DNA from: Pagrus major
Taxonomy: Eukaryota; Chordata; Actinopteri; Spariformes; Sparidae
Direction: 5' to 3'
Assembly (NCBI RefSeq): GCF_040436345.1
Contig: NC_133230.1
Location: 20,532,197-20,596,196 of the forward strand
Length of the DNA stretch: 64,000 nt
Each line of letters opens with the position of its first letter. The stretch's first letter is position 1. Position numbers and translations under genes: made by a program. This document shows, one piece after another, positions 1,271 through 49,504 of this stretch. Below the pieces are notes generated by a model. The model saw only the letters and a program-made list of their open reading frames with translations. It was not told the DNA's origin and ran no database searches.

Positions 1271-4200
1271 TTACTGGTAGCCCACAGGGCTGTCCATGAG
1301 TGGGCTGGAGCAGTAGGGGTCCGGTGGGTCTTGGAGCTCAGTCTCATGGGTCTGGGAGGGGTCTTCGCACTCTTCTTCCTCCACCTGGTCGTGGCTTGAA
1401 CTCCTGGAGCTGACCATGGCGCCGTAGCTGTGGTGGGCTGGGGAGGGCATGGGAGTCAAAGCCAGCTCTGGCTCCAGCAGCACGGACGCCACAAACAGCT
1501 GAGGGAGGAAGATCAACATACAGTTTATGATCGTGTCAAACGGTTAATTACTTCCCACAGGGAGCATAGAAGATGAAAGTTTGTTTTTCAGTAAGGGTTT
1601 GTGGTGGTTCCCCACCCTACACTTACGGGGTAAAGATACATGTTCAGATCTTAACTAATTAATAATTCTGAGAGTTCATAACCTGAAAAATAAGGTGACT
1701 GGCAAAGATAATAAATCCAGCTTTGAACTTTTGCCTCAATACGTCATGGGGGTCATTGTGCATGTTTTAAGTGATCAAAGAAGTATTCAGAACATTATTT
1801 AATCAAAAGTAACACATATTACAAGTTGTTTATAAGATGATCATATGGTTTGTTTTTAAAATACCTGCAAAGTAACTAGAAACTAATGCTATCAGATAAA
1901 TGTAAGAGTTAAAGTATAATATTTTTATGATTTTTTATAGTATAGCACTTGAGAAAAAGTATTTGTTCATCACTTCTTACAGGTGCTTTTGGTTATTTTA
2001 ACCGATTTATTATGAATCACATATAAATTACAGTATTTTCTTACCATAGTTTATTAGAGTGGTTTTGTTGCCTATTAAAGACTTGAGCAACGCTATTAAA
2101 TTCATATCATAAGACTGATGTTTTTTGACGCAAATGCAGCACTGACAGTAAATGCACCAGCCTGGAAACTCAGCGTAACTTTTACACCAATAAAAACTGA
2201 GCCTAACGTGTCAAGTTTCAAGCCTCTGACAGTTGTCACTGCTAGAAACGTAGAAGAAATACATAAAATACACAATATGCTTTGTAGATTGTGAACACTT
2301 ATTTAAAGTATATGTTAAGATTCCATTTGCAAAAACACATAACTCAATTTGTATTTATTCTGAATCCTTATGCTTGTGTGTGTGTAATCCCAGGATTATC
2401 AATCAAAAAAATTATCCTGTAAGATATGTTTTAATGATGAACTGTCAGGCTAATAGGATAAAATGTTATACTGTACACTGGAGGCAGTGGTGGATGTTAC
2501 AGTAGTCCTGTCTGCATCAGTGAACGTCCCCTCTGCTGGCTGATCAGACATCTGAAACAAAGAAAAAAAACATACCTTTCATTCAGCATTAGTGCATCTT
2601 CAGCTGAAACGTATCTCAGTGAGGTGTGGCGGAGCTGACCTGGTAGCTTGTTGACTTGTCTGGTTGCTTCTTAAGGCACAAGCGGAAGAGGGAGAAGGCA
2701 ATAGAGGAGAGCAGGGACGCTGAGGTGAAGAGGGTGATGGGATGCATTGGACCTGTGAGGGGAGATTGCAAAGTCAATTTTGCAGTTTGATGGCAGTAAA
2801 CTTAGGACTCAGTGACAGCTAAAGGTGCTGTAGCAGGATAGAAAAATGGAAGTGATACCTAATCTGAGCATGGAGAAGAAGAGCAGCCAGAACATGCAGA
2901 GGACGGGAGCCACGATGACCTGGCTGATGGCCGCCCTGTGGATGCGCTGGTTGAGTTTGGTGGGAACGTATGCATAGTAGATGTTGTATCGGTCAACCAT
3001 GTGCTTGAGGATCACATAGAGCAGACCTGGAGGGGCACAAGAAAACACACAAACACTTACTTCAATGATCAGTACTTGAAGTATGAAAGAGAAAAAAGAT
3101 TGAAAGGTCCAGTGTGTAAGATTTAGAGGCATCTACCAGTGATTGCAGGTTGCGACCGCATGAACAACCCTATTATATACCCCATTTCTGCCCCTAAATC
3201 CTACATATTGCACATTTAAATATCTTAAACAGCATCCACAAAGCATTCAAGCAAGCAGATGGAAGGCAGTGCAGTTGATTTAAGGCTGAAAGACAGAAAT
3301 CCTTGTGGTTCTTTAACATCATATTTTAGATTTTGTTCTCTCCAAACTTCACCAAACCCCACACATACAGTAAGGTTTGAGGACCTCAAAGGTTTGGCAG
3401 TTAGATGAAATGCTGTGTTGCTTCTTTGTGGTTCTACCCAATGAGGTTTAACTCAACCAGTGAGATTGTATGTATGTACTGCCTCAGAAAAATGTTTGTA
3501 TCCAGTCTGCAATAAGCTAAAATGCACAGAACAGCAGGGTATTATGTATGAAAGGGCCCGATCGGGCTTTGAGGATTTGACTGCTGAAGTAAATAGAAGC
3601 TTTTTGAGCTCTGGGCAGAGACAGGAGCAGAGTGGGCGTCTGGCTCGCAACTCACTGTGTCTGGGTGTCTGGGACTACAGCAGCAAATTCACACAGTCTG
3701 CATCGGACTGGCAGGCAGCAGAGGAGAGTGAGGGCGCAGTATGAGGAGAGACACACACACACAAGACTGAGAAGGAAGGTGATGGGATGGGGGAGAAAGA
3801 CAAAAGGTGGAAAGAAGGAAGAGGTAGATGAGGATAAAGGAGAATCACTGTGCTGTGTGTTGCTCACCAAAGGGTGTAATGATGGGACATGTGATGCTGT
3901 AGGTCATACTGACAGCAAAGATACACATGGTCCAGGCGTACTCCAGGCCAAACTGGAACTCATAGGCCTGACTCTGTGGATGAAAACACAAACAGTGAGA
4001 TTTTCACATCTCAGCACAGAACACAATCTAATGTGCCTGACATGTAAACGCCGTGATAAGTATGAAAGGCTCGGCTAACCCGCTTGACATGAATGCGCTC
4101 AGCCTGGGACTTGGCGAAGCAGAGGCGGAGGGCATACACCGTCAGCGCTGGGATGCGAAGCAGCTCCATAGCCGTGCCAATCAGACTGGATGTAATCACA

Positions 4201-7200
4201 TAGTTTACAAAGAACGCACCGTTGTCAGGGAGAAACACACACCTGCAAAAAGGAAACGAGGAAACCTGTGAGTGCTGAAATGTCCTTTTACATTTGCCTA
4301 AATTTGTCCGTGACTTTAAAGGTGCAATATGAAAAAAAAAGAGAAATCGTACTGGAATTTGACATCCTTTTCATCCAGGAAGTGGACATCAAAGAGCCAC
4401 GTGAAGAACAGGTCCAAACTACAGAAAGAATGAAATATGAAAAGGACGTACTTCTAAAGAAGTATGAATATTTTAAAGTGGGTAAAATCAAAAGAAAAAA
4501 TAAGTTATATGTTTGTTTTGAGAGTTAGTGTACCTGGACAGACCAAGTGAAGGCAGGAGGATGACCATGAAGACCAGCAATAAAAAACACTTGTGCATCG
4601 TCACTTGATTCTCACCAGATCTGAGACATTAAATGAAAAATAAGGGATCATAAGAACATCATTATGCAATACATATTTAGTTATAAAATCAGCGCAACTC
4701 CCTTCAACATAATCAGTTTATAATGTGATATAATGTAATGTAAAGTCAGCTGACGCCACATTTACAGGACTGCTGGGGTTCATTAGCACGAACTACGCTT
4801 TTCACTCCAGTAAACAGTCGATTTGCATTCGGTCCTTCGCACATCACGCCTGCACAACACGTTTGTGGGGGTGGTTATGTAAAGAAAGGGTGCTCATAGG
4901 TGCTGCGCGAGGTTGTCTCCTTATGCACAGTTGTTCTGCTCCTCCTCCCGCTAGTCACCATGTGCCGCTCCTCTGCGCATGGTGACTACTGTGCATATCA
5001 TTATCCTCACATGGAGATCTCTATGACAACCTGCCCAGAATAACAGTGCAGGGAGAGTGACAGAGAGAAGGAGGGAGAGAGGGGGGAGAGCGTAAAAAGA
5101 GCAACAGGGTGAAAGAGAAAAAAAAATAATTGAGATGAAAAAAAAAAAAAAAGAAATGCTGGGAGTTGAGAGGAAGACATGCTACACATGAAGGGTCCAT
5201 TTGAAGAAGCAAAGGACAGGCATTTCCATTTCAGAGGAGAGAGGAAAGTGCTGGCCGATGGCTGGTGAGTACCTGGTCCAGTGGGACTCGAAGAAGGCTG
5301 AGTAGTAGACGATGAAGGGCAGGAGCACCGAAAACGCCCACAGCAGGAGGGTCGGGAAGAACTGGGTAATGACTGGGCTCTGGATTTGACAGGAAAATGG
5401 TTAATTAATGACTAAGAAGAGGGTTAAAAAGGTGGCGTTAAGGCCACATGGTTCAACTTAATCTCAAACTCCTGACCCGCAGGCTCTCCACAGGCCTCGT
5501 GACGTTGAACTTGTCCATGGTGTTGACGATGATGGCGGGAGTTGTGAGGAAGAAGAGCAACAGGAAGAGGAGGATATTGAGGAGGACACAACGGAGCCAC
5601 CAGCGAGATCCACACACTGACAGGTTTTCCCTGGTGAGGGGAGAAATAACGAGCATCAATTCACAGTCATCCAGCAAGACAGACAGGACAGTTAACACAC
5701 CACTGTCCCCTGACACTCCTCTACTGTATGTATTGACATAAGCCTGAAATAGCCACCTCTCTGTATGTGAGTTTCCACTGGAGAGCAGCACACTTCAGCG
5801 CTCAGTTTTAATGAAGGAGCAAAAGTACCTGCTCCAGTCGTCTAGTTAGTGCAAAAACACATTCGCACACTGCGACCAAGCAGGCGTGAAGCACAAACAG
5901 CGAGTGCTACCATCTCTTTGGTTTAATCTCCCATACATATGCATCACTCATTTGTTACATAATCTCGCTGGGACTGCCGCATTTGCTTTCCAAGATGAGA
6001 AACATGCATTACGGCTAATCCAATCAAGGACAGGGAATGAGCTTTAAATGGCGTTTAAGATCTGCTACAAACAAACATCAAGAGCTAAAGGAAAAAAGAA
6101 ATAGGAGCTCTGATGCAGATACTCTGACAAAGCCGAAGTGCATCATTTGCATAATTTGTACCTCTTGTCTGAATAAAAAGCTTCTTGGAGCTCCATCATT
6201 ACAAGCTAATGTTGCATCGACAGGCAAAATTACAGCCCGCAGAACTTTGGTTTGAAGTGTAGTCACGATACCAAGCTTTCCAAAGATACCAAATATGTCA
6301 GGGTTAATTACAGGGAAATGTGTCTAAATGATGCATAAGTCATGTAAAACTGGATATTACACTCAAAATATGCGTCCGCATGGGTTTGCTCCTTGTGCTC
6401 TGGTTTCCTCTCCTCAGTCCATGCAGACCTGCAGGTGTGAATGCGAGTGGGAATTGTTGTCTGTCGGTATACCATCAATTCTTGTCCTCATTACCAACAA
6501 TGCAACTTAGCCACTGAGTGGTATCACTGGAGATAACATGCAGCTTCTTCTGGAGCCACAAGGCTTTGTACTACTTTTTTACATATGCAGTACTACTCCT
6601 CATGACCTGTAAACACACTTTAATGTGTAAAAATCGGTGGAGTTACCCTTTAAGTTGTAGGAAAGTAGTATGATGTTTACTTTGTGGCCAATTAAGTGAA
6701 ATAAGACTTAAGGGGACCCTTAAAGTGAAAAACTATCTGAGTTCCAGTAATGTCAGTACTGACCAGATGATGTCACTGGGAGCAGGTGCGTAGTTGACCC
6801 CCCATTTGTGCGACTGCACCACAGTGGTGATGCTGGACTGCTGCGGTCTGCGACGGCAGTGCACGCAACTGTAGTCCTTCACAATTCTGGAAAACAAAAC
6901 AACACGTACAAAAGTGCTGCAGAAATCTGCATCAGCAGCTTTTATGTGTCCCCATGAATTTTATGTCGGCTCCCTGCTGTGACAGGGTTTACGTGACGAG
7001 AGGGCCTGACAGTCATAAACCTCCGTGTCATTCTGTTGTTTACTCACACCGCAGTCATCCTCTCATCACGGAAAGTCACGAAGGCGATGCCCAGCCTCTT
7101 CATGGAGATGCGGTTCTTCTCAGCGTTAAACTCGTCGGTCCGCTTTTCCTCTAACTCGCTGTAGTACTGTTCTGCATCCACCTGCGCATAAAAAGTTAGA

Positions 7201-10200
7201 GCACACATTACTCACTGCATCTTTCACTCACAGAGTTCCCCAGATTCACAGTGGCAAGATATGTTGTTGCTGCATGTGCCTACTTCTGGATTGCAGTGCC
7301 ATCCAGTGGTAACATACTTTCTGCGCAGCACAACTGACTGATCCCAGTAATGTTGATAAAAAGCACCTTTTCAAAGCCACAGATGTCGCAGCAGAATATC
7401 TGAGCACACGGATGGGTCTTGATCAGGATCTTCCCCTCCTTTTGGGCCTTTGTAGCAAAATACAGCCTGCCTTTCATCGCTTTGCGCCTGCAAAACACAT
7501 CAACATCCTCAAACAAGAGTCTCACACTGATCACAAACTGTGCTGCTCCAGTCTGTAACAGGTACTGTACCTCTCTAAGTCCAGCCTCATCAGCTTGTGG
7601 ACATCGAAGCAGAATCGAATATCAGTGACCGTACAGCTGGGGTAGGCCTCACTGGTGAATGGAGGAAAAGGACTTCAGGACATCAGAATGACGGGGATGA
7701 GATTGTGCATGTACATGTGTCTGGTCAGGGATTCCTTGTGATTTAACTTGACTTAACAATGAAATAGAGAAGAAAACATGCGTACTGGAAGTGTTTGGTG
7801 ATGAGTCCTGGGTCAGAGATCTCTCTTGGTATGCAGGTGATCATCAGTGTCCTGGCTACCTGCAACACATAATGCAATTACCATGATGAGTAATTATAAA
7901 GTGATATCAGCCATGCTAGCAGTGTGGCTCCATCGGTCTACCAGACAGAAATATATTGAGAATAACAAGGAAAAATTTGTCCTGAGAGGATGAATCCCGA
8001 TTAGGCCTGTCACAGTAACTACTTTGGTTGAACAATACATTGTCCCAGAAATACTTAAAACACTGTTATTGTCATTTTAAGACCATTTTGTGCCACTAAT
8101 ATAATGATAATATAGCACCAGAATACTACAAGTACACCTTTTCAAAGAATGAACTTCTAATTCTTTTAATTTATATTCAAGCATCCTAAATAAATAAAAC
8201 AAAAGAAATAAAACCATGCAACCAAAAATTGCATGTTAACATAATCGGCAATATCGGGGGCAGCAAAAATTGATCGAGGTCATGTACATATATGAATAAG
8301 TTGATAAGATATGTATGAGAAGTAGATAACTTAATTTCTGTGACAGACATTTGGACACATACCTGTAAAACTAATGTACTTAGCAAATTACCGAATTTTA
8401 GCATGCTAACATGCTAAACAAGAGTAATGGATGCTTTTGCAGACGAGAAATGACCAGGCCTTGATGTTTAATGGTCCAGTGTGTAGGGAGATCCCTCGAT
8501 AAAAACACAAAAGGCCATCTCTAGAGCCAATTTTTTTTGTCCACTCTAGGCTACTGTAGAAACATGGCTGTGCAACATGGCAGACTCCTTGGAAAATGAT
8601 CTGCTCCTTGTTTCTAGATGTAAGAGGCTAATTCTAAGGTAACACAATGATTATTTCAGGTTTCAGGTGATTATACACTCATGAAAAGATAACTATAAAT
8701 ATTATATTCCATTTCTGCCAATAGATCCCTTTAAATCCTACACACTGGACCTTTAATCAGTGTGATGTGCTGGTGACAGACCTTCTCATCCTCTCTGTAC
8801 TCCAGCCGTATGGAGTGGTGAGCCATACACAGCAACGTCATGATGAAGTAGACCAGAGCAAAGATGCTGTGGAGCCACAGAAAGTTGTCCCTGTGAGGCA
8901 CAAAAACACTGTTGTGACTTAAACAAATATATATAGTTCAGTGTGTTTTCATGGTCCTGCGCTATTTCACGAGATCTGATGTCATTCACAAAGTGTTGGA
9001 CTTACTTTGCGCTAACATTAGCCAGTGTTGTTCTTCCAAAGTTTTCAGGACTGTCTCCTGTAGGAATAATGAAACACGACAGACAGCGAGACATTTTAAT
9101 TTCTAAATGACTTGAGGGAAAACCCCTCCTCTTTTGTCTGAGGCAACGATGAAGCAATGTCACTATTAAGAGAAAACCCTCTCCATCCAAGTTTAATGAC
9201 ATCTCTCTCATCTCAATGAAATTTCACACAAAACTCAAACATCGCAGTCATGCCTAACTCTGCTGTTTTAATTTGGGCACCCTTTGTTTGCCGTCGCCAT
9301 GGCAGCCTGTCAACGGGTGCTGGTTTATTTAATGGCTGGGGTGACATACTGCTCTATAAGATGACAGCCAGAAGTAATAAAACCGTTTCTGTGGAAGGCC
9401 CAGCTCCTCGTAGACCCCATAATGGCTCCTGCCTTCATCCTGTTAGGGAACGGCCTCGTCAACACTTCCTACAAAATAAGCACTCAGCTGCCAAAAGGCA
9501 TTTCTGCTTCTATTTAGCAACCCCTGACACCTACATGTGTATGTTAAGAGGAAATGAAGCACTTTCTATTTCTATAATCCTACTTGGGGAATTGCCACTG
9601 GTATGCTAGCAACTCAAAATAAATGAAATGTAGCCTTTGTGTACTGCATGTAAATAGTAGTTGTACTTCATACTGTTGTTTTATGGGCAATTCAGAGTTA
9701 AAATTATCCTTTGAGTTTACGTGAGTTTTGATTTTATTTTGTTATGTGAGATGATTTGGCTTTTTTTAAACTCAACTTTACCACAGACTGTTGAAAGCTT
9801 ATGTTTCTGACCATTTAACTAACAAACAATCTGGTGTGTAGATGTGTGTGATTGTCTCTGTGTGGCCTGGCTTCTCTCCCTGCGAGGTGCCCCATGTGTC
9901 TCTCCCGATGGTTAAGGATATCCCTCGGCTTTTCAAACAACTGGCTAGGCCATCATGTAGGGACTAAAATACCCAGGAGGTTCCCGGAAAAGTTGACCGG
10001 CAGGATTACGGCCAAAGACAGCAGGCAAACCACGGTCATGAGCAGGATGATGTGGCGCTGGAAGGACAGGTACGTGACGGCGTCGATGCCGCATTTGCTG
10101 CGTATCTCTTCGTCCCTGCGGAAACAGAGAGGGTAAGCCTTCAGAATCTCTTAATCCCAAACTTTCTACGCTGCATGATAAAAACAAAGATGCTGCAAAT

Positions 10201-16200: not shown

Positions 16201-19184
16201 TTCCATCACTGATTTTGAATGAACAAATGCTTAAAGGCATTTCAGCTAAACTTTGTGTTGGAGTTTGTATTATTCCAATTTCTAAATATCTACACCAAGT
16301 TTTACATCTCTGCTGTAAATGCATAATGGTTCCACATGTCCATTATCTGTCTGCTTGATTACTGATAATCAGCATTGGCCCTGAAAAAACAAACATACTG
16401 GTTGACCCCTAATCCATTGTATGTGTTGAGTCAGCAGAAATTGATATTTTTAGACGACAGATACTAACCAGGATTTTAAAACGTGAATGTGTTATCATGT
16501 ATGTACATATTGACCAGTACTGTGTTCTTGTGAAGTAAAAAGGGTAGACTGTCATGCATTGGCTATACTTAAAGTATCAGACATAAGGCTGTGTGTATCT
16601 AATGCTGAACAGTGATTAAAACAAGATGTACTCATTACATTCAAATGGTCTTATAATCTACAAATGAACTTAAAACAATGGTCATCATTCCCTGTGGAAA
16701 AAAAACAATACCAAGAACAATTCCTTCTTGCCAAGAAGGGAGGGTCAGATAGTGTTACAGCTCCATATGAAATGTTCATACGGTTTGCCTTTTTATTTAG
16801 CATACTGTAGGTAGATAAGTTATTTTGCTCATTATCCTAAGCATATTTTTGAGTTCACCAGATTCTCCTTAACAGTAAGACTTTATCTTTGACTTTTGGT
16901 AATCCCAGAGAGGACTTGTAGGCACCAGAGCTGTATCCTTTACCTGGGTGTAGACAATCTTCATTGTGTCCTTGATGCTATCACTAGGGGGCACCAAAGT
17001 CTAACATGTGTAAATCTAAAGGCCTTTACAAAGTGGCTGCGTAAAACGTCTGTACCTGTGCACATTAAACGGACAGACTCCTTGTGTTATGGCTTGAACG
17101 ACTTTGATTTAGCTTATAGTCCGCCTCACCAATCAGAACATAACTGATTAATAGGCTAATAATATTAATATTAATATTAATAATCATCATCATCATGACC
17201 TCTTCCTTGCTTATGTAGCTTGGTGTCATCTGTCATCTTTGACTTGCACAGTGCAGGGATTCTGTTTTTCATAATGGTCCCTGTTCCCAGGAGACCATTT
17301 GCTTTCAACATATCCACTACTTTGACAGAGGTGAAATACCTGTCAAAGTACAGGTGTGTTCCTCTTGCAAGAGACTGCGCCATCTGAGCGACTGCATTCA
17401 GACCAGATCAACTAGAAAGCCTAGCTTACGCATTGCTTCTTATCCATAATAAAGGATGGTGGGTGTCGTCATTTTGTCCCTGCTCAGACTCCTCACAAAC
17501 TGATGTGTCGTCATCTGAGCTTTCAGTTTCCTGCTCTACTGTCTCCTCCACCTCATCACCTGACAGCTCAAAGTCTGACTCCCCTTCCACTATTCTGAGT
17601 AAAATCCTTTCTGCCTCACTCAGCTCTCTGTTTTCTGAAGTATGGAAATTGGTAAAAACAGGAGGTAGTAAGTCCTGCTGTCCACTACAGAGGACATTGC
17701 ATAAAAGTTGTGTTTTGAAAGGGTTAAAATGGTTGTACATTTCTAAAATCTTACTTAATTGAAGTTAAGACTCTTATATTGAAGAAACTATTTGATTAAT
17801 AGCAATAGAAATATCATATCTGCAGAAAAATTATCACGTGCCTCTCTTGTTGCCATAAAATGTGAAAAGCTGAGATGGCAGCCATTTTGAAAAGAAAGTG
17901 CTTGTCCCTAATAGCCACACCCCCACAACTGTGGCATCACTAGAAAGCCCGGGATGTCCTCTAGACAATACAGTCTGACTCAAATAGATTGCATGAATGG
18001 TGCTTGAGTTAGAGGTCTCAGACTCATGTCCCCCACAGAGGACAAAAATTAATTGCTGGGTCATCTGAGGATAAGGACATCTGACCATCCTTTGCAGGGT
18101 CACCGGAGGCTGGAGCCTATCCCAGCATGCACTGAGACACCAACAGTCACAGTCTGTCATAGAGAGTCTCGAATTAACCTAACTGCCTGACGAATACCAC
18201 ACATTTTGAATGTAATTTCATGTTTGAAACCCATGAAGGAGAGCATGCAAACTTCCCGGGTTAGAGTTAGACCCCAGGATCTCCTTCTTGTAACAGCTTC
18301 ACCACCTGACACAGTATACACGACCCTTGCAATACTCAATAAAAGTGTGTTGGCATGTTTCCAATACACAGCGTGTCTGCATTCATTTCACTCATTCATG
18401 TATGATGTCCAGCACTCCGAACACTCCTCATGCACCTCTTGTTGTCTGTTTAGATCAGGGCACTTCATAACATCTCAATGGGGTGTTGGCAGCTTTGGAT
18501 TTATTCAGAGACCTTGTTGTCAAGGTCCTCTAAGCTGCAGCAGCACACAAAGAATAGATGATTCAGAGTGTAAAAGGTGGACAACAAGCTTCCTGTTAAA
18601 GAGAGGACATGTGATTCTAACTAGAGCTGAAATTAATCGCTGATTAATTGATTTGCCGATGGCTAGAAAACACCTACTTTAATAATTGATCATTTCCATC
18701 CTCTCCTCTGTTTCAAGCTTCTCAAATGTGAACATTCTCTGGTTGTCTATTACGCATAACTTAAAAAATTCTGCTGGTTTTATTAAAGCTGGTATTATAA
18801 ATGGTTATTATAGAAAGTGAGACTAAAGGAAAATGGCAGAACAATGTTTTGAAAGCTGTTTCATATCAACATTTACAAACAAATGGTAATTGACAATAGC
18901 TTTACTGGATTAAACTGTGTATATTATTGTGTGTGTGTGTGTGTGTGTCTGCGTGTGTGTGTGTGAGTCTGTACCATCCACAGCACCCCATTGATGGCGA
19001 GGACCGTGGGCACCCCTCCAAACGGCAGACCCTGGAGGACGCTGCTGCGGGAGTGCGAGCGGTAGCATCTCTCAGCAGTGCTGTTATCCTCCCCAAACTG
19101 GTCCAGGAAGCTCAGAACATCCAGCTCCAAAGCTCTCCCCTCCACAGGGGGCGCTCTCGTCACAAACAGCTCAGAGTGCGCCAT
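1271..19184 (-). CDS. tmem63c: TMEM63C, calcium-permeable stress-gated cation channel (OSCA/TMEM63 family)
   Basis: TMEM63 proteins are membrane cation channels gated by osmotic or mechanical stress. I assembled 21 coding exons on the minus strand, 5' to 3': 18975-19184, 13433-13512, 11991-12078, 10830-10867, 9973-10115, 9006-9057, 8782-8890, 7786-7859, 7571-7651, 7367-7487, 7048-7181, 6764-6886, 5477-5630, 5273-5379, 4534-4620, 4080-4242, 3868-3973, 2859-3026, 2640-2752, 2501-2551, 1271-1498. All splice phases agree and give 2430 nt (809 aa); human TMEM63C is about that length. Family hallmarks seen are [11 protein letters not shown]-like ([15 protein letters not shown], aa 47-60), [10 protein letters not shown] with NDSLTSL (about 85-100), YLSFQRHI and LPVNFSG (about 155-183), a cytosolic RNA-binding-like RTLMIT...PREISDP loop (about 243), FFLTTPAII and MDKFNVT (about 440-460), [12 protein letters not shown] (about 474), [17 protein letters not shown] and the C-terminal FVASVL. 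Hydrophobic segments fit about 11 helices. Start MAHSEL is chosen as the first in-frame ATG of its exon. The 51-nt exon 2501-2551 is the least certain. Confidence 0.95.
3100..3219. mobile_element. Short MITE-like element in tmem63c intron
   Basis: The left end (AAAGGTCCAGTGTGTAAGAT at 3103) and the right end form imperfect terminal inverted repeats: the reverse complement of the right end starts TTTAAATGTGCAATATGTAG. Both ends match the AAAGGT(C/G)CA(A/G)T(A/G)TGTA-type termini seen at several other places in this window. There is no coding capacity. It lies between tmem63c exons 2859-3026 and 3868-3973. Confidence 0.6.
8468..8756. mobile_element. MITE with about 20-bp terminal inverted repeats
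   Basis: The left end has GGTCCAGTGTGTAGG at 8473. The right end carries its exact reverse complement, CCTACACACTGGACC, ending near 8751, followed by TTTAA. The body is about 290 bp, AT-rich and non-coding. It is inserted in the tmem63c intron between 7859 and 8782. It shares termini with the element at 3100. Confidence 0.75.
12251..12282 (+). repeat. (TG)n microsatellite
   Basis: An interrupted TG repeat in the tmem63c intron between 12078 and 13433. Confidence 0.85.
14406..14426 (+). other. G-quadruplex candidate
   Basis: The run GGGGGCGGGGGGGCGGGGGC contains G tracts of 5, 7 and 5 separated by single C residues. The 7-G tract can supply two 3-G runs, giving four tracts with one-base loops. 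On the tmem63c sense strand it is a C-rich run. It lies in the intron between 13433 and 18975. Confidence 0.6.
14672..15212. mobile_element. About 540-bp MITE ending in TTAAAGGGACAGTTCACT
   Basis: The left end at 14673 reads TTAAAGGGACAGTTCACT. The right end ends AGTGAACTGTCCCTTTAA at 15212, an exact inverted copy. The subterminal sequences (AAATCTAAAATACAT and its counterpart ATGTATTTTGAATTTTTG) also match imperfectly. This terminus is common in perch-like fish genomes, from general knowledge. TTAA at both edges fits a piggyBac-type target, which is an inference. Confidence 0.85.
15649..15745 (+). other. tRNA-like sequence (possible SINE head or tRNA pseudogene)
   Basis: TGGCCGAGCGGTTAAAG at 15653 is a good RNA polymerase III A box of the Ser/Leu tRNA type. 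About 65 bases later AGTTTCGCATCC (15731) is only a rough B box, and I cannot fold a convincing cloverleaf. A decayed tRNA or tRNA-derived SINE fits better than a functional gene. Confidence 0.35.
17157..17197. repeat. AT-rich simple repeat (TAATAT/ATC units)
   Basis: A run of ATTAAT units followed by four ATC triplets. It abuts the 3' end of the piggyBac remnant. Confidence 0.8.
17177..17740 (-). pseudogene. piggyBac-type transposase remnant, internally deleted
   Basis: Two minus-strand coding fragments are visible. At 17640-17426 there is an acidic N-terminal region ([12 protein letters not shown] and [12 protein letters not shown], about 40 Glu/Asp-rich residues) typical of piggyBac-derived transposases. 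At 17425-17177 there is the DDE-domain segment [20 protein letters not shown] followed by [14 protein letters not shown], a signature of PGBD4-like elements. In an intact transposase of about 580 aa these are separated by several hundred residues, so the middle is missing and the C-terminal Cys-rich end is absent. It lies in the tmem63c intron between exons 13433-13512 and 18975-19184. It cannot encode an active enzyme. Confidence 0.85.
18085..18270 (+). mobile_element. LINE-like dispersed repeat fragment
   Basis: GGTCACCGGAGGCTGGAGCC, TATCCCAGCATGCACTGAG, AGTCTC.AATTAACCTAACTG and GAGCATGCAAACTTCC are all pieces of a very widespread teleost repeat that I recall as a LINE 3' region. The copy is gapped and degraded. 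Family assignment was not checked. Confidence 0.55.
18621..18890. repeat. Dispersed teleost repeat (ATTAATCGATTAAT-type)
   Basis: It begins AGAGCTGAAATTAATCGCTG and includes ATTAATTGATTTG and CTCAAATGTG. Related copies are at 40965-41226 and 59020-59313. It is non-coding and lies in a tmem63c intron. Confidence 0.6.
18929..18965 (+). repeat. (GT)n microsatellite touching the tmem63c exon 1 donor
   Basis: An interrupted GT repeat ends about 10 bp from the splice donor at 18973-18974. On the transcript strand it is a CA repeat just inside the intron, a position where length can modulate splicing. Confidence 0.9.
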
Positions 19185-38506: not shown

Positions 38507-40412
38507 TCACTCCAGGATTATTTGCGCTTTAGCTCCCCATTGTTCCTTGTCTGTGTGCTGCAGAGAGAGCTGCAGTTTAGACCAGAGCTGCGGGTCACCG
38601 CTGCTCAGAGCCTCCAGCAGCAGAGTCGTCTGCTCCTGAAGCTGCTGCAGCTGGCCTTGCGTGCGCTTATTCTCCTTGATCAGCTGATCCGTGCGCATGG
38701 TGATCCCCAGCAGGCCAGATTTGTTGAGAATGTTGTAGGTATTGCTGAACCGTTTCTGTTTGTCACTGTCCATGGAGGAAGGATCCTGGTACTTTTCAGC
38801 ATCCATCCTGTCGCTGTCAATCTCAGTCCTGAATTCATCTGTGTAGGGCAGCAGAGAGCTGCTCCCTGCAAGCGGGGAGAGAGACTTGTCACTCAGCTGC
38901 TCCTGACTCTCAGTTGCCGGTGATTGGTTGTTTGCTGCTTCAAAGTTGGAGATGGGTTTGATTGGAGTCTGCAGCACTGGCTGTGGGCTGGAGGAGCCAT
39001 AGAGCCGGTGGCTGCGGTGGTGCCTCCTCTGCCGCTGGTCATATCTTGATGTGGAACTTGTCCTCACCTTGGAGGATCCCACCCTTTTAGTGGGAGTGTC
39101 CGCAGGGTGTGGGGCGATTTTGGGATAGGACTTGAGGATGGGCATGTAGCTTTTTGATTGTCGGATATTGTCAGAGCCTGTCTTTGGAGAGCTGCTGCTG
39201 CTATTTGATACCATGGGCTGAAGAAGAACCACCTGTGACTGAGGCATCACTTCTAAGGGGGAAGGAAAGCCCCACTGTTTCTCTGCTGGAGCCATCTGGG
39301 TCGGCTAAAGAAAGAAGAAATAATATCATGTTAAAGTGCATTTGAGGAAGATGCAACTTGCTGTGATGCAACACGTTCAAATGCTCTCCCTGGTTTAAAT
39401 CAAATTTCAGAGAAAAAAATCCCCAATTGTCAGACATGCGTAAAGAAATACACAGCATGAGGCAGAGGCATACATGCTGCTGTTCTTTACCTGCTTTAAG
39501 ACAAAGTTGTTCATGATGATCATTGGAGACAGTCCTGGGTATGACCCTCCCATCACAGCCACTTGCGGACCAGCCGGGTCCTGGCCGACAATCGACCCGT
39601 TCCTTCCTGCATCTTCAGAGTCAGTCAGATCAACTGTGCTGAGGTACTCAGAGCTGGCATCTGAGGAGAAGAGGACAAGTATAAGGGTCTCATTATGCTC
39701 TAAAGCAACACATCAACCTTTCTATTGTGAACCTGAGGCAGAACATTAGTACTGTGACAACAGTGGCAGATGTAGATAAGCATCTGGAATAGGATACCAT
39801 CAACATGATGAGGAGGGCTAATCCAAATCCAGGTCAGCCTTCAGATTGTAAATAATAGTCATAAGGAGAATTGACCCAGTAGAAGATAACCTACATAGAA
39901 AATGTGACCTAGATTGCTACATTTGATTAGGGTTGACCTTGTTTTTGGACTTGGTCGTTTCTTCTAATCATGAAAATGCGAATTATATATGCATATACCC
40001 AATCACAACACGTGCCACACTGGCAATACAACCGCGTTAACATAAAACATACACTGGGATAAACAAAGTATTTAAAGCTACTGTAAGTGTTGTCGTTGTT
40101 TTAGCTAACTTCCTGTCCGTTTTGCAGTTAGCAATCCCCTCTCTCCTCTCTACGTCACCACATGAACATGCAGCGGTAATCTCCACACAAGCAGAGAGGA
40201 CAGCCTCTTTATGGAGTTTTCTATCCTGGTTAGATGAGGTGGGCAGGGATACCATAAATATCACTTACAGCAGCTTTAAGGAAAGGGCAACGTAATTGAA
40301 TCAAACCTGAGAAGCCTGAATCTCTCTCGAGGTCAGACTTGGAAGCTCCAAGGTGTGTTACCCTGGTGAATGCTGATGTCCTGTGCCGGTTGAGGCTACT
40401 AAAACTGCTCAT
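38507..40412 (-). CDS. cipc: CIPC, CLOCK-interacting pacemaker (circadian repressor)
   Basis: CIPC binds CLOCK in the nucleus and dampens CLOCK-BMAL1 transcription. Three coding exons on the minus strand: 40307-40412, 39491-39660, 38507-39304; phases agree and give 357 aa (human 399). The first exon carries SDLERDSGFS, split across the junction into DASSEYLS, matching the human DSGFSDGSSECLSS region. The second ends LSPMIIMNNFVLKQ, matching human LSPMVVMKNVLVKQ. The third has SYMPILKSYPKIAPHP (about aa 140) and the conserved C-terminal helix QKRFSNTYNILNKSGLLGIT followed by MRTDQLIKENKRTQGQLQQL (about aa 275-325), the predicted coiled coil near the CLOCK-binding region. The middle is Ser/Pro/Gln-rich and poorly conserved, as in mammals. 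Start MSSFSSLN is the first ATG after the acceptor at 40424; a non-coding exon must lie upstream. Confidence 0.95.
40009..40014. promoter_or_regulatory. Canonical E-box CACGTG in cipc intron
   Basis: A perfect CACGTG lies between cipc coding exons 1 and 2, 0.4 kb from the start codon. CLOCK-BMAL1 binds this hexamer. Function here is inferred from CIPC's role; a 6-mer is expected by chance every few kb. Confidence 0.25.
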
Positions 40413-41226: not shown

Positions 41227-41461
41227 CTGAAAGGGCTACTTTACAATGCTTTGGTGTTGAGCAAACTGCACAGATTATTATACGGGTCAATGACGTGATG
41301 CAATTTTTTTTGTGTTCTTATGGTTCAGTTGAATTTAAAAAAGGTTAAAATTGGAAAATAAACGTACAAATTACTTGCATACATTCTCTTTTTTAAGACC
41401 TCATCTAAAATTTCTGGATTTAATCAATTTTCAGAGAATATTCAGGGGATAATGGCAAAAA

Positions 41462-42052
41462 TGTCAATGAGGTGTAACCATAAACACATTGTACCAAATA
41501 GTTTAACTTGTTCAAAAAAGGTGAAATTCTCAATAAAACACCCTATCAACTAGTTTGGCATAATCTTACATTTGTGTTGTTTAATAATGAATAAAATAAA
41601 TGGAACACCATTGTTCTGAATATTATAATTAATTTGGGGAATTGTGTTTGTCAAGTCAACTTCCTAAAGTGTCAAGGTGGTGTAACCAACATTCAAGGAG
41701 CCATTTTGTTAATTTGTGCAAGAAGACCATGTGACAGGAAATTATATCACAGAGAAGGACCCCTGATTAGCCTAACTGCTGCATGATGAGGTTAGTAACT
41801 CTCTTTGAAATCTTGATAATTTGACATTTTTAGGGTATGGTCAGGTGTGCTTAGGGTTACATGTCAAATGGTATAACCCCAGGAAAACATTTATCATTCA
41901 TAATAATTGTAAAAATAAGTATTTATTTTAAAAAATGTGTTTGAAATCTTCACACCAAGGCCATGTGCTTACATAGGGGTCCATCATAATGCCTGTTGAA
42001 TTTGAATTTAAATTAAAATGTCAAATGGTGTAACCGGTTACACCATCTGACT
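41462..42052. repeat. Left cluster of TGTCAAGTGGTGTAACC motifs
   Basis: Copies are at 41462-41479 (TGTCAATGAGGTGTAACC), 41670-41687 (TGTCAAGGTGGTGTAACC), 41862-41878 (TGTCAAATGGTATAACC), 42019-42035 (TGTCAAATGGTGTAACC) and, inverted, 42036-42052. Spacing is about 160-210 bp. The last two face each other and form a 34-bp near-perfect palindrome with a perfect 22-bp core (42025-42046). Such subterminal motif clusters are transposase-binding sites in several transposon families; that role is inferred. Confidence 0.85.
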
Positions 42053-42367
42053 TTTATTACATTCCTTTTGGTTAGAGGCTGATTTTGTCAAATATCAGTA
42101 GTTTATGATGCTGATTAAAGATGTAATATGAACTAACTTACTATGTGGAACTATTTTCAAGTGTTAAGTGTTATATTTCTTATGAAGAAGTGGTGATTTA
42201 TCCACAACTTTATTATCAAAGCTCTGGAAGGTTAGGATAAAATCATTATTTTGCATGGTTTTGATATTTTTTAAATGTTTAGCTTTAATATATATTTGTA
42301 TTCCATTCACTTACAATTTTAAGCAATATATAGTGCAATATATGTAATTTCATAATGTAGCAGAATG

Positions 42368-42440
42368 AAGTGGGTGAACAGTGACAATGTTGAACATAAA
42401 CCTGCTGTTCATGTTCAACATTGTCACTGTTCACCCACTT
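42368..42440. repeat. Perfect 30-bp inverted repeat beside the satellite
   Basis: Arms 42368-42397 and 42411-42440 are exact reverse complements (AAGTGGGTGAACAG... against ...CTGTTCACCCACTT) around a 13-base loop. It lies 34 bp left of the first satellite unit. Either strand could form a stable cruciform or RNA hairpin. Confidence 0.95.
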
Positions 42441-42473
42441 TAAAAAGACTTAAAACTCCAATAATATGAGCAT

Positions 42474-45400
42474 TGTCCAACTACGTTGCCTTAAAACAGA
42501 AAAATACGTCTTCTGCCCTGAGACCAGGAGAGATTCACCTGCCCTCAGACAACTTCTGCCCTGAGACCAGGAGAGATTCATCTGCCCTCAGACAAAATTG
42601 TGGGAAACAATGGTCTCTGCCCTGGGACCAGATGAGACTAAACAGCCATGAGGAAAATCCTACAAAACAATTTCTGCCCTGAGACCAGAGGAGACAGTTG
42701 ACTCCCTTTTTTCCAACTACGTTGGCCTGAGAACAGAAAAATACGACTTCTGCCCTGAGACCAGGAGAGATTTACCTGCCCTCAGACAACTTCTGCCCTG
42801 AGACCAGGAGAGATTCACCTGCCCTCAGACAACTTCTGCCCTGAGACCAGGAGAGATTCACCTGCCCTCAGACAACTTCTGCCCTGAGACCAGAAGAGAC
42901 AGTTGACTCCCTTTTGTCCAACTACGCTGCCTTAAAACAGAAAAATACAACTTCTGCCCTGAGACCAGAAGAGATTCACCTGCCCTCAGACAACTTCTGC
43001 CCTGAGACCAGGAGAGATTCATCTGCCCTCAGACAAAATTGTGGGAAACAATGGTCTCTGCCCTGGGACCAGATGAGACTAAACAGCCATGAGGAAAATC
43101 CTACAAAACAATTTCTGCCCTGAGACCAGAGGAGACAGTTGACTCCCTTTTTTCCAACTACGTTGGCCTGAGAACAGAAAAATACGACTTCTGCCCTGAG
43201 ACCAGGAGAGATTTACCTGCCCTCAGACAACTTCTGCCCTGAGACCAGGAGAGATTCACCTGCCCTCAGACAACTTCTGCCCTGAGACCAGGAGAGATTC
43301 ACCTGCCCTCAGACAACTTCTGCCCTGAGACCAGGAGAGATTCACCTGCCCTCAGACAACTTCTGCCCTGAGACCAGAAGAGACAGTTGACTCCCTTTTG
43401 TCCAACTACGCTGCCTTAAAACAGAAAAATACAACTTCTGCCCTGAGACCAGGAGAGATTCACCTGCCCTCAGACAAAATTGTGGGAAACAATGGTCTCT
43501 GCCCTGGGACCAGATGAGACTAAACAGCCATGAGGAAAATCCTACAAAACAATTTCTGCCCTGAGACCAGAGGAGACTCCCTTTTTTCCAACTACGTTGC
43601 CCTGAGAACAGAAAAATACGACTTCTGCCCTGAGACCAGGAGAGATTTACCTGCCCTCAGACAACTTCTGCCCTGAGACCAGGAGAGATTCACCTGCCCT
43701 CAGACAACTTCTGCCCTGAGACCAGGAGAGATTCACCTGCCCTCAGACAACTTCTGCCCTGAGACCAGAGGAGACAGTTGACTCCCTTTTGTCCAACTAC
43801 GTTGCCCTGAGAACAGAAAAATACGACTTCTGCCCTGAGACCAGGAGAGATTCACCTGCCCTCAGACAACTTCTGCCCTGAGACCAGAGGAGACAGTTGA
43901 CTCCCTTTTTTCCAACTACGTTGCCCTGAGAACAGAAAAATACGACTTCTGCCCTGAGACCAGGAGAGATTTACCTGCCCTCAGACAACTTCTGCCCTGA
44001 GACCAGGAGAGATTCACCTGCCCTCAGACAACTTCTGCCCTGAGACCAGAGGAGACAGTTGACTCCCTTTTTTCCAACTACGTTGCCCTGAGAACAGAAA
44101 AATACGACTTCTGCCCTGAGACCAGGAGAGATTTACCTGCCCTCAGACAACTTCTGCCCTGAGACCAGGAGAGATTCACCTGCCCTCAGACAACTTCTGC
44201 CCTGAGACCAGAGGAGACAGTTGACTCCCTTTTTTCCAACTACGTTGCCCTGAGAACAGAAAAATACGACTTCTGCCCTGAGACCAGGAGAGATTTACCT
44301 GCCCTCAGACAACTTCTGCCCTGAGACCAGGAGAGATTCATCTGCCCTCAGACAAAATTGTGGGAAACAATGGTCTCTGCCCTGGGACCAGATGAGACTA
44401 AACAGCCATGAGGAAAATCCTACAAAACAATTTCTGCCCTGAGACCAGAGGAGACAGTTGACTCCCTTTTTTCCAACTACGTTGCCCTGAGAACAGAAAA
44501 ATACGACTTCTGCCCTGAGACCAGGAGAGATTTACCTGCCCTCAGACAACTTCTGCCCTGAGACCAGGAGAGATTCACCTGCCCTCAGACAACTTCTGCC
44601 CTGAGACCAGAGGAGACAGTTGACTCCCTTTTTTCCAACTACGTTGCCCTGAGAACAGAAAAATACGACTTCTGCCCTGAGACCAGGAGAGATTTACCTG
44701 CCCTCAGACAACTTCTGCCCTGAGACCAGGAGAGATTCACCTGCCCTCAGACAACTTCTGCCCTGAGACCAGAGGAGACAGTTGACTCCCTTTTTTCCAA
44801 CTACGTTGCCCTGAGAACAGAAAAATACGACTTCTGCCCTGAGACCAGGAGAGATTTACCTGCCCTCAGACAACTTCTGCCCTGAGACCAGGAGAGATTC
44901 ATCTGCCCTCAGACAAAATTGTGGGAAACAATGGTCTCTGCCCTGGGACCAGATGAGACTAAACAGCCATGAGGAAAATCCTACAAAACAATTTCTGCCC
45001 TGAGACCAGAGGAGACTCCCTTTTTTCCAACTACGTTGCCCTGAGAACAGAAAAATACGACTTCTGCCCTGAGACCAGGAGAGATTCACCTGCCCTCAGA
45101 CAACTTCTGCCCTGAGACCAGGAGAGATTCACCTGCCCTCAGACAACTTCTGCCCTGAGACCAGAGGAGACAGTTGACTCCCTTTTGTCCAACTACGTTG
45201 CCCTGAGAACAGAAAAATACGACTTCTGCCCTGAGACCAGGAGAGATTCACCTGCCCTCAGACAACTTCTGCCCTGAGACCAGAGGAGACAGTTGACTCC
45301 CTTTTTTCCAACTACGTTGCCCTGAGAACAGAAAAATACGACTTCTGCCCTGAGACCAGGAGAGATTTACCTGCCCTCAGACAACTTCTGCCCTGAGACC

Positions 45401-48136
45401 AGGAGAGATTCACCTGCCCTCAGACAACTTCTGCCCTGAGACCAGAGGAGACAGTTGACTCCCTTTTTTCCAACTACGTTGCCCTGAGAACAGAAAAATA
45501 CGACTTCTGCCCTGAGACCAGGAGAGATTTACCTGCCCTCAGACAACTTCTGCCCTGAGACCAGGAGAGATTCACCTGCCCTCAGACAACTTCTGCCCTG
45601 AGACCAGAGGAGACAGTTGACTCCCTTTTTTCCAACTACGTTGCCCTGAGAACAGAAAAATACGACTTCTGCCCTGAGACCAGGAGAGATTTACCTGCCC
45701 TCAGACAACTTCTGCCCTGAGACCAGGAGAGATTCACCTGCCCTCAGACAACTTCTGCCCTGAGACCAGAGGAGACAGTTGACTCCCTTTTTTCCAACTA
45801 CGTTGCCCTGAGAACAGAAAAATACGACTTCTGCCCTGAGACCAGGAGAGATTTACCTGCCCTCAGACAACTTCTGCCCTGAGACCAGGAGAGATTCATC
45901 TGCCCTCAGACAAAATTGTGGGAAACAATGGTCTCTGCCCTGGGACCAGATGAGACTAAACAGCCATGAGGAAAATCCTACAAAACAATTTCTGCCCTGA
46001 GACCAGAGGAGACTCCCTTTTTTCCAACTACGTTGCCCTGAGAACAGAAAAATACGACTTCTGCCCTGAGACCAGGAGAGATTCACCTGCCCTCAGACAA
46101 CTTCTGCCCTCAGACAACTTCTGCCCTGAGACCAGGAGAGATTCACCTGCCCTCAGACAACTTCTGCCCTGAGACCAGAGGAGACAGTTGACTCCCTTTT
46201 GTCCAACTACGTTGCCCTGAGAACAGAAAAATACGACTTCTGCCCTGAGACCAGGAGAGATTCACCTGCCCTCAGACAACTTCTGCCCTGAGACCAGAGG
46301 AGACAGTTGACTCCCTTTTTTCCAACTACGTTGCCCTGAGAACAGAAAAATACGACTTCTGCCCTGAGACCAGGAGAGATTTACCTGCCCTCAGACAACT
46401 TCTGCCCTGAGACCAGGAGAGATTCACCTGCCCTCAGACAACTTCTGCCCTGAGACCAGAGGAGACAGTTGACTCCCTTTTTTCCAACTACGTTGCCCTG
46501 AGAACAGAAAAATACGACTTCTGCCCTGAGACCAGGAGAGATTTACCTGCCCTCAGACAACTTCTGCCCTGAGACCAGGAGAGATTCACCTGCCCTCAGA
46601 CAACTTCTGCCCTGAGACCAGAGGAGACAGTTGACTCCCTTTTTTCCAACTACGTTGCCCTGAGAACAGAAAAATACGACTTCTGCCCTGAGACCAGGAG
46701 AGATTTACCTGCCCTCAGACAACTTCTGCCCTGAGACCAGGAGAGATTCACCTGCCCTCAGACAACTTCTGCCCTGAGACCAGGAGAGATTCACCTGCCC
46801 TCAGACAACTTCTGCCCTGAGACCAGAGGAGACAGTTGACTCCCTTTTTTCCAACTACGTTGCCCTGAGAACAGAAAAATACGACTTCTGCCCTGAGACC
46901 AGGAGAGATTTACCTGCCCTCAGACAACTTCTGCCCTGAGACCAGGAGAGATTCACCTGCCCTCAGACAACTTCTGCCCTGAGACCAGGAGAGATTCACC
47001 TACCCTCAGACAACTTCTGCCCTGAGACCAGAGGAGACAGTTGACTCCCTTTTTTCCAACTACGTTGCCCTGAGAACAGAAAAATACGACTTCTGCCCTG
47101 AGACCAGGAGAGATTTACCTGCCCTCAGACAACTTCTGCCCTGAGACCAGGAGAGATTCACCTGCCCTCAGACAACTTCTGCCCTCAGACAACTTCTGCC
47201 CTGAGACCAGAGGAGACAGTTGACTCCCTTTTGTCCAACTACGCTGCCTTAAAACAGAAAAATACAACTTCTGCCCTGAGACCAGGAGAGATTCACCTGC
47301 CCTCAGATGACATTGTGGGAAACAATGGTCTCTGCCCTGGGACCAGATGAGACTAAACAGCCATGAGGAAAATCCTACAAAACAACTTCTGCCCTGAGAC
47401 CAGGAGAGACAGTTGACTCCCTTTTTTCCAACTACGTTGCCCTGAGAACAGAAAAATACGACTTCTGCCCTGACACCAGGAGAGATTCACCTGCCCTCAG
47501 ACAACTTCTGCCCTGAGACCAGAGGAGACAATTGACGCCCTTTTGTCCAACTACGTTGCCCTGAGAACAGAAAAATACGACTTCTGCCCTGACACCAGGA
47601 GAGATTCACCTGCCCTCAGACAACTTCTGCCCTGAGACCAGGAGAGATTCACCTGCCCTCAGACAACTTCTGCCCTGAGACCAGGAGAGATTCACCTGCC
47701 CTCAGACAACTTCTGCCCTGAGACCAGGAGAGATTCACCTACCCTCAGACAACTTCTGCCCTGAGACCAGAGGAGACAGTTGACTCCCTTTTTTCCAACT
47801 ACGTTGCCCTGAGAACAGAAAAATACGACTTCTGCCCTGAGACCAGGAGAGATTCACCTGCCCTCAGACAACTTCTGCCCTGAGACCAGGAGAGATTCAC
47901 CTGCCCTCAGACAACTTCTGCCCTGAGACCAGGAGAGATTTACCTGCCCTCAGACAACTTCTGCCCTGAGACCAGGAGAGATTCACCTGCCCTCAGACAA
48001 CTTCTGCCCTGAGACCAGGAGAGATTCACCTGCCCTCAGACAACTTCTGCCCTGAGACCAGAGGAGACAGTTGACTCCCTTTTGTCCAACTACGCTGCCT
48101 TAAAACAGAAAAACATGAATTCTGCCCTGAGACCAG
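42474..48136 (+). repeat. Hierarchical satellite array, 5.66 kb
   Basis: Three building blocks are visible. Unit A (43 bp) joins CTTCTGCCCTGAGACCAGG to AGAGATTCACCTGCCCTCAG and ends ACAA. Unit B (76 bp) contains CAGTTGACTCCCTTTTTTCC and GAACAGAAAAATACGA. Unit C (about 77 bp, seven copies) contains TTGTGGGAAACAATGGTCTC and CATGAGGAAAATCC. Unit A itself splits into two related halves of 21-22 bp sharing CTGCCCT(G/C)AGAC. A+A+B makes a 162-bp higher-order unit, for example 45504 to 45666. Blocks of about 1 kb repeat again: 44856-45089 recurs at 45853-46086 (offset 997), and 42473-42682 at 42914-43123 (offset 441). Open frames through it are artefacts, since 43 and 76 are not multiples of three. 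Confidence 0.97.
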
Positions 48137-48218
48137 TTTTTTCTTCATTGAAAATAATAAAGTTCAATTGACCTTGTTTCTTCAACAAACAATGGCCTTT
48201 GACTGTAGAAGCAACATA

Positions 48219-48584
48219 GTCAGGTGGTGTAACTGGTTTGTGTCAATTGGTGTAACCAGTATTTTTCATAAAAATATTATGATATACAGGAAAATTCATG
48301 TGGAATAAGATGTAATCCTCTATTGCAATGTATTAACATATTTTTTTAACAGTTTATACATAATTTGTCAAATATTATTTAGAAAACACAAAGTGTTTTC
48401 AGCATTTGTCCTGCTCTATATCACAAAAACGCATACAATTTTAATTTAAAATAATCCTAATAAAATCTATTTTCATGTGATATTTTAAAATTAAGTAACT
48501 GTTTTCATAAGTACACTTGCATACACTCTAGGTGGAAAGAAATATTTAATATTTCTCCTTTTGTTGTGGTTACACCACTTGACA
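48219..48584. repeat. Right cluster of TGTCAAGTGGTGTAACC motifs
   Basis: Copies are at 48219-48235 (AGTCAGGTGGTGTAACT), 48241-48257 (TGTCAATTGGTGTAACC) and, inverted, 48568-48584 (GGTTACACCACTTGACA, an exact inverse of the consensus). It mirrors the left cluster across the satellite, supporting one element that includes both shoulders. Confidence 0.85.
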
Positions 48585-49504
48585 TTTTCAGGGGCAATCG
48601 GTCTTACCTTTTGTAAAAAATAGTTCAAATGCTATTTCAAATTACATGAAACCAACATAAATACAAAATATACATTTTAGCAAACCTGATGCAAGCTTTT
48701 AAAACATTTTTTTAAAACATTTTTGAATTGCTCATAATGCAAACCCTTGTTTGTCACTGACCCATACAGATTTGTGTTTCTAGCATTGTGTCGACCTTAT
48801 TTACCAATACACATCCCTACAAATAGGATGATGTTGTGTTTGGAACAGGTCACTGAATAGGACGAAATACTTAGCTAATTAATATAAGCCCAGGTTATTA
48901 TAAGTTATTCAAAAAGTTAAAGTTAGTTAGGTGGCAATAATAAAGTTATTTATTTATTGAACTGAGCTTGACATCAAGGGGCCTGTTTACACCCACGCAG
49001 CCAATTGGACTGACGCACAGAGCTACTGTAATGTTGAGTGATGCATTTCACCATTGCTCAAAGCAAGGTAATGAAGAAAAGTGCCAAAGCAAACAAAAAA
49101 AATCATAAGTTTGGAGTCTAAACTGTTCAATATTCATGACTTGTTACAACTAGCTAACCTAGCATTGATGTTGTTTACACACGCAACTTCGTCAACTCTA
49201 ACTATTGTCTGTTTACCACAGTTAACATACTGGTGACTGCCTCACACTGCTTAACTTTGACTTTTTTAGTCAACTACGCAGCTGCAAGTAGTTAATTATT
49301 AGCAGGAGGGATGCACCATTAGCTAGCTGTTATTGTCTGTCTCCACGGTAGACTGGCTCACTGTTTACTGCCCTGCCCCTGCACTGTTAGCTCAGTTAGC
49401 CAGCTAGGTGACGCTAGCTACCGTATTTTTATCTTATATATACAGCACATCACGAGACAGTCGATAAGCTATTTAGCTAATAGTATTATTTTCGCAAATC
49501 TTAC

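Follow-up and report, generated by a model that had tools for sequence, protein, structure and literature searches.

The window analysed here is a stretch of 64,000 nucleotides of the Pagrus major genome (C16:20532197-20596196). Upstream of the gene cipc, at positions 41284-48763 of the window, lies an element of 7,480 bp, whose edges were read from the sequence and in which a satellite array separates two shoulders. We consider this element to belong to a family of non-autonomous DNA transposons of the cut-and-paste (DDE) type, with a satellite cargo, and put the probability of that reading at about 0.88. An earlier note, made from the letters alone, had proposed a non-autonomous transposon with a satellite between its shoulders. 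Multicopy shoulders, common termini, target duplications and an array of varying length all bear this out.

Architecture of the element

The sequence from position 41280 is ATAC followed by GGGTCAATGAC. The sequence ending at 48767 is GTCACTGACCC followed by ATAC. By direct reading, the two ATAC tetranucleotides (41280-41283 and 48764-48767) are the left and right target-site duplications. The terminal inverted repeats are GGGTCAATGAC on the plus strand (41284-41294) and GGGTCAGTGAC on the minus strand (48753-48763). They are 11 bp long and imperfect, with one mismatch, and 29 of 40 scored matches to the left shoulder start at 41284. The element marked at 41281-48766 in the earlier note is therefore present with corrected edges. 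Its ends do match, though not over 12 bp, and the real flanking duplication is 4 bp rather than TA.

The left and right shoulders occupy 41284-42472 and 48137-48763, respectively (both plus strand). The satellite array fills the interval between them (42473-48136, plus strand) and, at 5,664 bp, is the 5.66-kb core first described. All units have one orientation. They parse into 65 A, 30 X and 7 Y modules of 43, 76 and 75 bp, respectively, with a common core of about 23 bp. The longest open frame within this array has 123 codons.

A hairpin at 42368-42440 results from an inverted duplication. Its arms (42368-42401 and 42407-42440) are 97% complementary, so the hairpin is real but not perfect as was claimed, and the DNA fold has an energy of -36.6 kcal/mol (z -12). 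The hairpin had also been counted as part of the architecture of the element. However, it occurs in this copy alone of 21 compared; each of the 20 other copies fetched has one arm only. By eye, the second arm in the window copy is the reverse complement of a 39-base stretch found at that place in the other copies. A feature of the family is thus ruled out, and the hairpin would be a private inverted duplication, most simply the product of a template switch.

Dispersed copies with common ends and 4-bp duplications

We searched the genome (785.9 Mb in 25 contigs) for the shoulders and termini of the element. The results include a second class of copies, described below, that holds a remnant of a transposase gene. 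The shoulders are multicopy, as had been anticipated: 40 places were scored for each, from 71 candidates for the left shoulder and 67 for the right. Most full-length relatives of the left shoulder are 93-97% identical to it, and one is 86% identical; the right shoulder has 87-98% identity to repeats elsewhere. The left terminus, used as a 20-nt pattern with exact matches only, occurs 38 times. The right terminus occurs 53 times at up to 3 mismatches. The reversed control gave 0 matches in both cases. Hence, other copies with the same termini exist.

Among the 38 left termini, 19 lie outside the remnant class and pair with a right terminus, giving spans of 1.2-12.8 kb; copies of 1.2-2.0 kb lie at C12:19741856, C11:13008765, C15:31730882, C12:16379585 and C14:17062600. 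The remainder comprise 14 pairs of 3.6 kb, a single 9.1-kb pair (C21:1209836) whose right half of the span contains the remnant gene, and 4 unpaired termini. We fetched 20 other loci of 10 kb each. Six belong to the satellite class, with arrays extending, by their A units, over about 6.1, 7.9, 1.4, 2.5, 3.0 and 0.5 kb; the variable satellite length expected by the earlier note is therefore seen among the 7 arrays parsed. The other 14 are copies of 3.6-3.7 kb without satellite. Among the 7 satellite-class copies, left shoulders are 2.2-4.0% divergent from one another, consistent with a fairly recent set. On C6, two left shoulders (11743021-11743955 and 11737463-11738579) lie on one strand about 5 kb apart; one of these copies may have inserted into the other, or the two may stand in tandem.

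Insertion marks were read in 12 copies with both ends. The 4-bp flanks are identical in nine (ATAC, ATAT, GTAT, ACAT, CCCA, ATCA, AAAT, TGCT and TTCC). In the other three, 3 of the 4 bases agree (AAGA/AAAA, ATTA/TTTA and ACCA/ACCT). The expectation that insertions would be flanked by duplicated target sequence was thus correct, with the sequence being 4 bp and not TA. The family is dispersed, and has common ends, 4-bp duplications, size variation and, in its second class, a transposase remnant.

Subterminal sites and transposase relatives

In the 14 copies of the remnant class (L013, L014, L015-L024, L026 and L028), the same shoulders flank a broken transposase gene with the blocks SDGPVTQYRN and HGKGAPDGVGG. 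Their common flank is GCGT/GCCT, with GTGT in L014 and GCTT in L015. Similarity to L014 continues for kilobases downstream in all 13 copies compared, in pieces in L018. Because flank and downstream similarity are shared, we count the remnant class as one old insertion multiplied within a larger duplicated block. In L014 a further open frame, which encodes an integrase core domain (rve), is part of this block (3846-10000). Copies of the block on C9, C14, C19 and C24 are within about 125 kb of the contig start, which suggests subtelomeric exchange.

A search of the genome with a transposase fragment joined by hand from the remnants gave 110 matches. Setting the remnant class aside, L041 is the closest of them, at 69% identity over 104 residues. 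The right end of L041 is GTCATTGACCC, followed by ATAA. Outside the gene, blastn finds only short scattered similarity between L041 and the window element.

The earlier note had described a motif common to both shoulders. This motif, GTCARNTGGTGTAACC, has 7 sites at 13/16 or better, 4 in the left shoulder and 3 in the right, against 0.07 expected from 100 first-order Markov shuffles; the shuffle test is partly circular because these sites also supplied the pattern. Elsewhere in the window, 5 matches at the same threshold fall in 56.5 kb. The independent test is the sister family L041, which has 6 sites. On the left, plus-strand sites are at 41672-41687 (the weakest, 13/16), 41863-41878 and 42020-42035, the last being 157 bp from its predecessor. 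A minus-strand site at 42036-42051 forms a palindrome with 42020-42035. On the right, plus-strand sites at 48219-48234 and 48242-48257 are 23 bp apart, and an inverted site on the minus strand (48568-48583) follows after 326 bp. The spacings of 157, 23 and 326 bp are equal in L041.

A more distant relative, L042 (1780-3543), has an open frame of 588 codons that is 44% identical. It has D, D and E at positions 239, 321 and 354 (spacing 81 and 32). The blocks around all three residues are conserved with L041, and the last two also with the remnant. Judged from these sequences, the gene remnant looks DDE-like. The transposase relatives are perhaps Sola2-like. The remnant pieces gave only sub-threshold, unconvincing matches to Pfam. 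The L042 protein had no match among viral contigs, and one match among PDB sequences (E 0.075, a transcription factor subunit). By eye, a different, GTGTGAC-type motif is present around L042. Elsewhere, an open frame of 2,259 codons contains a relative of the transposase (C11:318826-319251) and may represent a fused or domesticated gene. Among the matches listed, a frame of 314 codons, 41-44% identical to the transposase, occurs at 17 places, 14 of them with equal score (for example C9:145149, C24:131392, C23:290175 and C14:199853), several being near contig ends.

Origin of the array and alternative readings

The order and proportion of modules vary among the 7 copies parsed. For a given module, the nearest relative is in the same element in fractions of 0.57 (A), 0.72 (X) and 0.48 (Y), compared with 0.20, 0.22 and 0.20 in shuffles of the 7 arrays. 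Some A variants are private to one copy; all 19 occurrences of one are in the window copy, and all 23 of another are in L009. Inside the L010 array, block duplications reach 3.0 kb at 98.6% identity (97% identity floor). The private variants and block duplications therefore indicate growth in place, and array length seems to have evolved independently from copy to copy. The junctions are constant. The left junction is identical in 7 of 7 satellite-class copies aligned and the right in 5 of 6, L010 being without that stretch. Growth after insertion, from a common starting array, is the simplest reading.

We infer the following sequence of events. A transposase made elsewhere would bind the GGGTCA ends together with the GTCARNTGGTGTAACC sites in both shoulders, excise the element and reinsert it elsewhere with a 4-bp stagger. 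The satellite class, which probably lost the gene rather than never having had it, would carry a tandem array between its shoulders as passive cargo. Once inserted, each array might grow or shrink by duplication and loss of blocks, through unequal exchange, replication slippage or gap repair.

Several observations weigh against this account. First, taking copies read and matches listed together, 10 of the 19 paired copies show an array, and comparison within one genome revealed neither an empty site nor movement. Second, there was no intact copy of a cognate transposase among the loci read, all 14 remnant copies being broken; no Pfam model supports the DDE reading, and the L042 protein has no meaningful match there. 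Third, no left end could be located for L041, which also departs from the window element in its first left spacing and lacks, at the threshold used, a counterpart of the palindromic site at 42036-42051. L042 has no such motif layout, just one weak site. Fourth, the L027 array contains no block duplication at the 97% floor. The signal of private growth is also partial, because none of the 7 arrays lacks the commonest A variant, and A modules differ on average by 4.7% within an array, only slightly less than the 5.6% between arrays. Finally, some satellite clusters are without element ends. A 256-nt satellite query gave 589 matches from 38 of 123 candidates scored, and about 150 matches were listed and grouped by eye into 22 clusters. 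Five of these have no element end at the stringency used (C15:25436414-25439094, C16:5986886-5991566, C18:25349647-25350820, C22:19926555-19929116 and C18:30837400-30839831). Free arrays are one possibility for them; decayed elements, or elements with unscored ends, are others.

These five clusters, which have neither terminus nor a scored shoulder nearby, are what could be expected if an independent host satellite, present also as free arrays, had been captured by the transposon. The modules are likewise compatible with capture: among the matches listed, none longer than 14 bases links them to the transposase remnants, L041, L042 or the shoulders. On the same listed matches, derivation of the satellite from the transposase gene is rejected. 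However, each of the other 17 clusters is accompanied by an element end on its own strand, no more than 6 kb away for a left end and 4 kb for a right one. The constant array junctions also argue against capture, and the searches for ends covered the scored candidates (40 of 71 and 40 of 67) and, on the left, exact termini. We regard capture as unlikely, though it is the strongest competitor to a transposon family whose arrays grew in place. We give less credence still to an extension of the transposon reading, in which array growth is coupled to transposition. There, excision gaps would be repaired inside the array with a sister copy as template, and the transposase would come from a DDE lineage outside Pfam.

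The genes neighbouring the element in the window are cipc (PF15800, E 7.5e-49), a gene with a PDGF/VEGF domain and a DHHC gene. The start codon of cipc is at 40412 on the minus strand and, by eye, a splice-acceptor-like sequence lies 11 bases upstream of it. Because these adjoin, there is likely an intron in the 5′ untranslated region; plausibly the element, which lies about 0.86 kb further upstream than the splice-acceptor-like sequence, is in or near it. Such a position would suit a regulatory element co-opted by cipc. Conversely, CACGTG was not found within the element, and similar shoulders occur in copies spread over many chromosomes. Co-option is accordingly very improbable; we see no reason to tie the element to the clock. 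The earlier note was right that the element is upstream of cipc, and no effect of the insertion on the gene is evident. Elsewhere in the window (17426-18178) are two open frames, the first acidic, that have no Pfam match; they may be a decayed piggyBac-like transposase.

Helitrons are not known to leave a target duplication, and they encode a Rep/helicase gene. The 4-bp duplications and the DDE-like remnant described above therefore contradict a Helitron with a tandem array. A foldback element requires long inverted repeats, and the ends here are 11 bp; the hairpin near the array, which might recall a foldback structure, is private to the window copy. Either identity is scarcely credible, despite the precedents. 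Central arrays are frequent in Helitrons (PMC12628747), and the foldback element Tetris has arrays within long inverted repeats (PMC4079207). A chance tandem repeat with fortuitous inverted repeats on either side can be dismissed, because the same ends, flanked by target duplications, recur in copies across the genome.

The window element is real, and elements of its kind are not new to animals. Satellites carried by, or arising from, elements are described in frogs, flies, bivalves and others (PMC9659126, PMC4079207, PMC12628747). In Xenopus, Xmix/Xstir and miDNA4 are likewise cases of a non-autonomous class II element that carries or yields a satellite; Xstir derives from an inverted repeat, and miDNA4 is within a Tc1-mariner miniature inverted-repeat transposable element (PMC9659126). 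Unlike these, the family described here has copies of up to 12.8 kb, makes 4-bp duplications and has three interleaved modules. Tetris, or DAIBAM, of Drosophila virilis is also non-autonomous and contains a tandem repeat whose copy number varies. Its repeats are inside the long inverted repeats and its duplications are 8-10 bp. The Tetris repeat alone fills some assembly contigs, and fiber fluorescence in situ hybridisation found no array of the repeat alone (PMC4079207). The window family differs in having one central array, 11-bp ends and 4-bp duplications. Target duplications of 4 bp are shared with Sola2. In amoebal Sola2, they are AT-rich and the inverted ends are 12-13 or 21 bp (PMC3627910). 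Here, ATAT, ATAC, GTAT and AAAT are AT-rich, whereas CCCA, TTCC and TGCT are not. We found no description of this family in the open literature, which is weak evidence because Repbase and most subscription journals were outside the scope of the search.

Two aspects of the family give it wider interest. Two families of one transposase lineage, for which Pfam has no model, have retained subterminal sites in common. In addition, arrays of very different length and order occupy one element, so that steps of satellite growth can be read copy by copy. If growth were indeed coupled to transposition, each jump would re-size the satellite. In that case, a single genome would offer a natural assay of how satellites arise, its copies of this one recent element spanning 1.2-12.8 kb.

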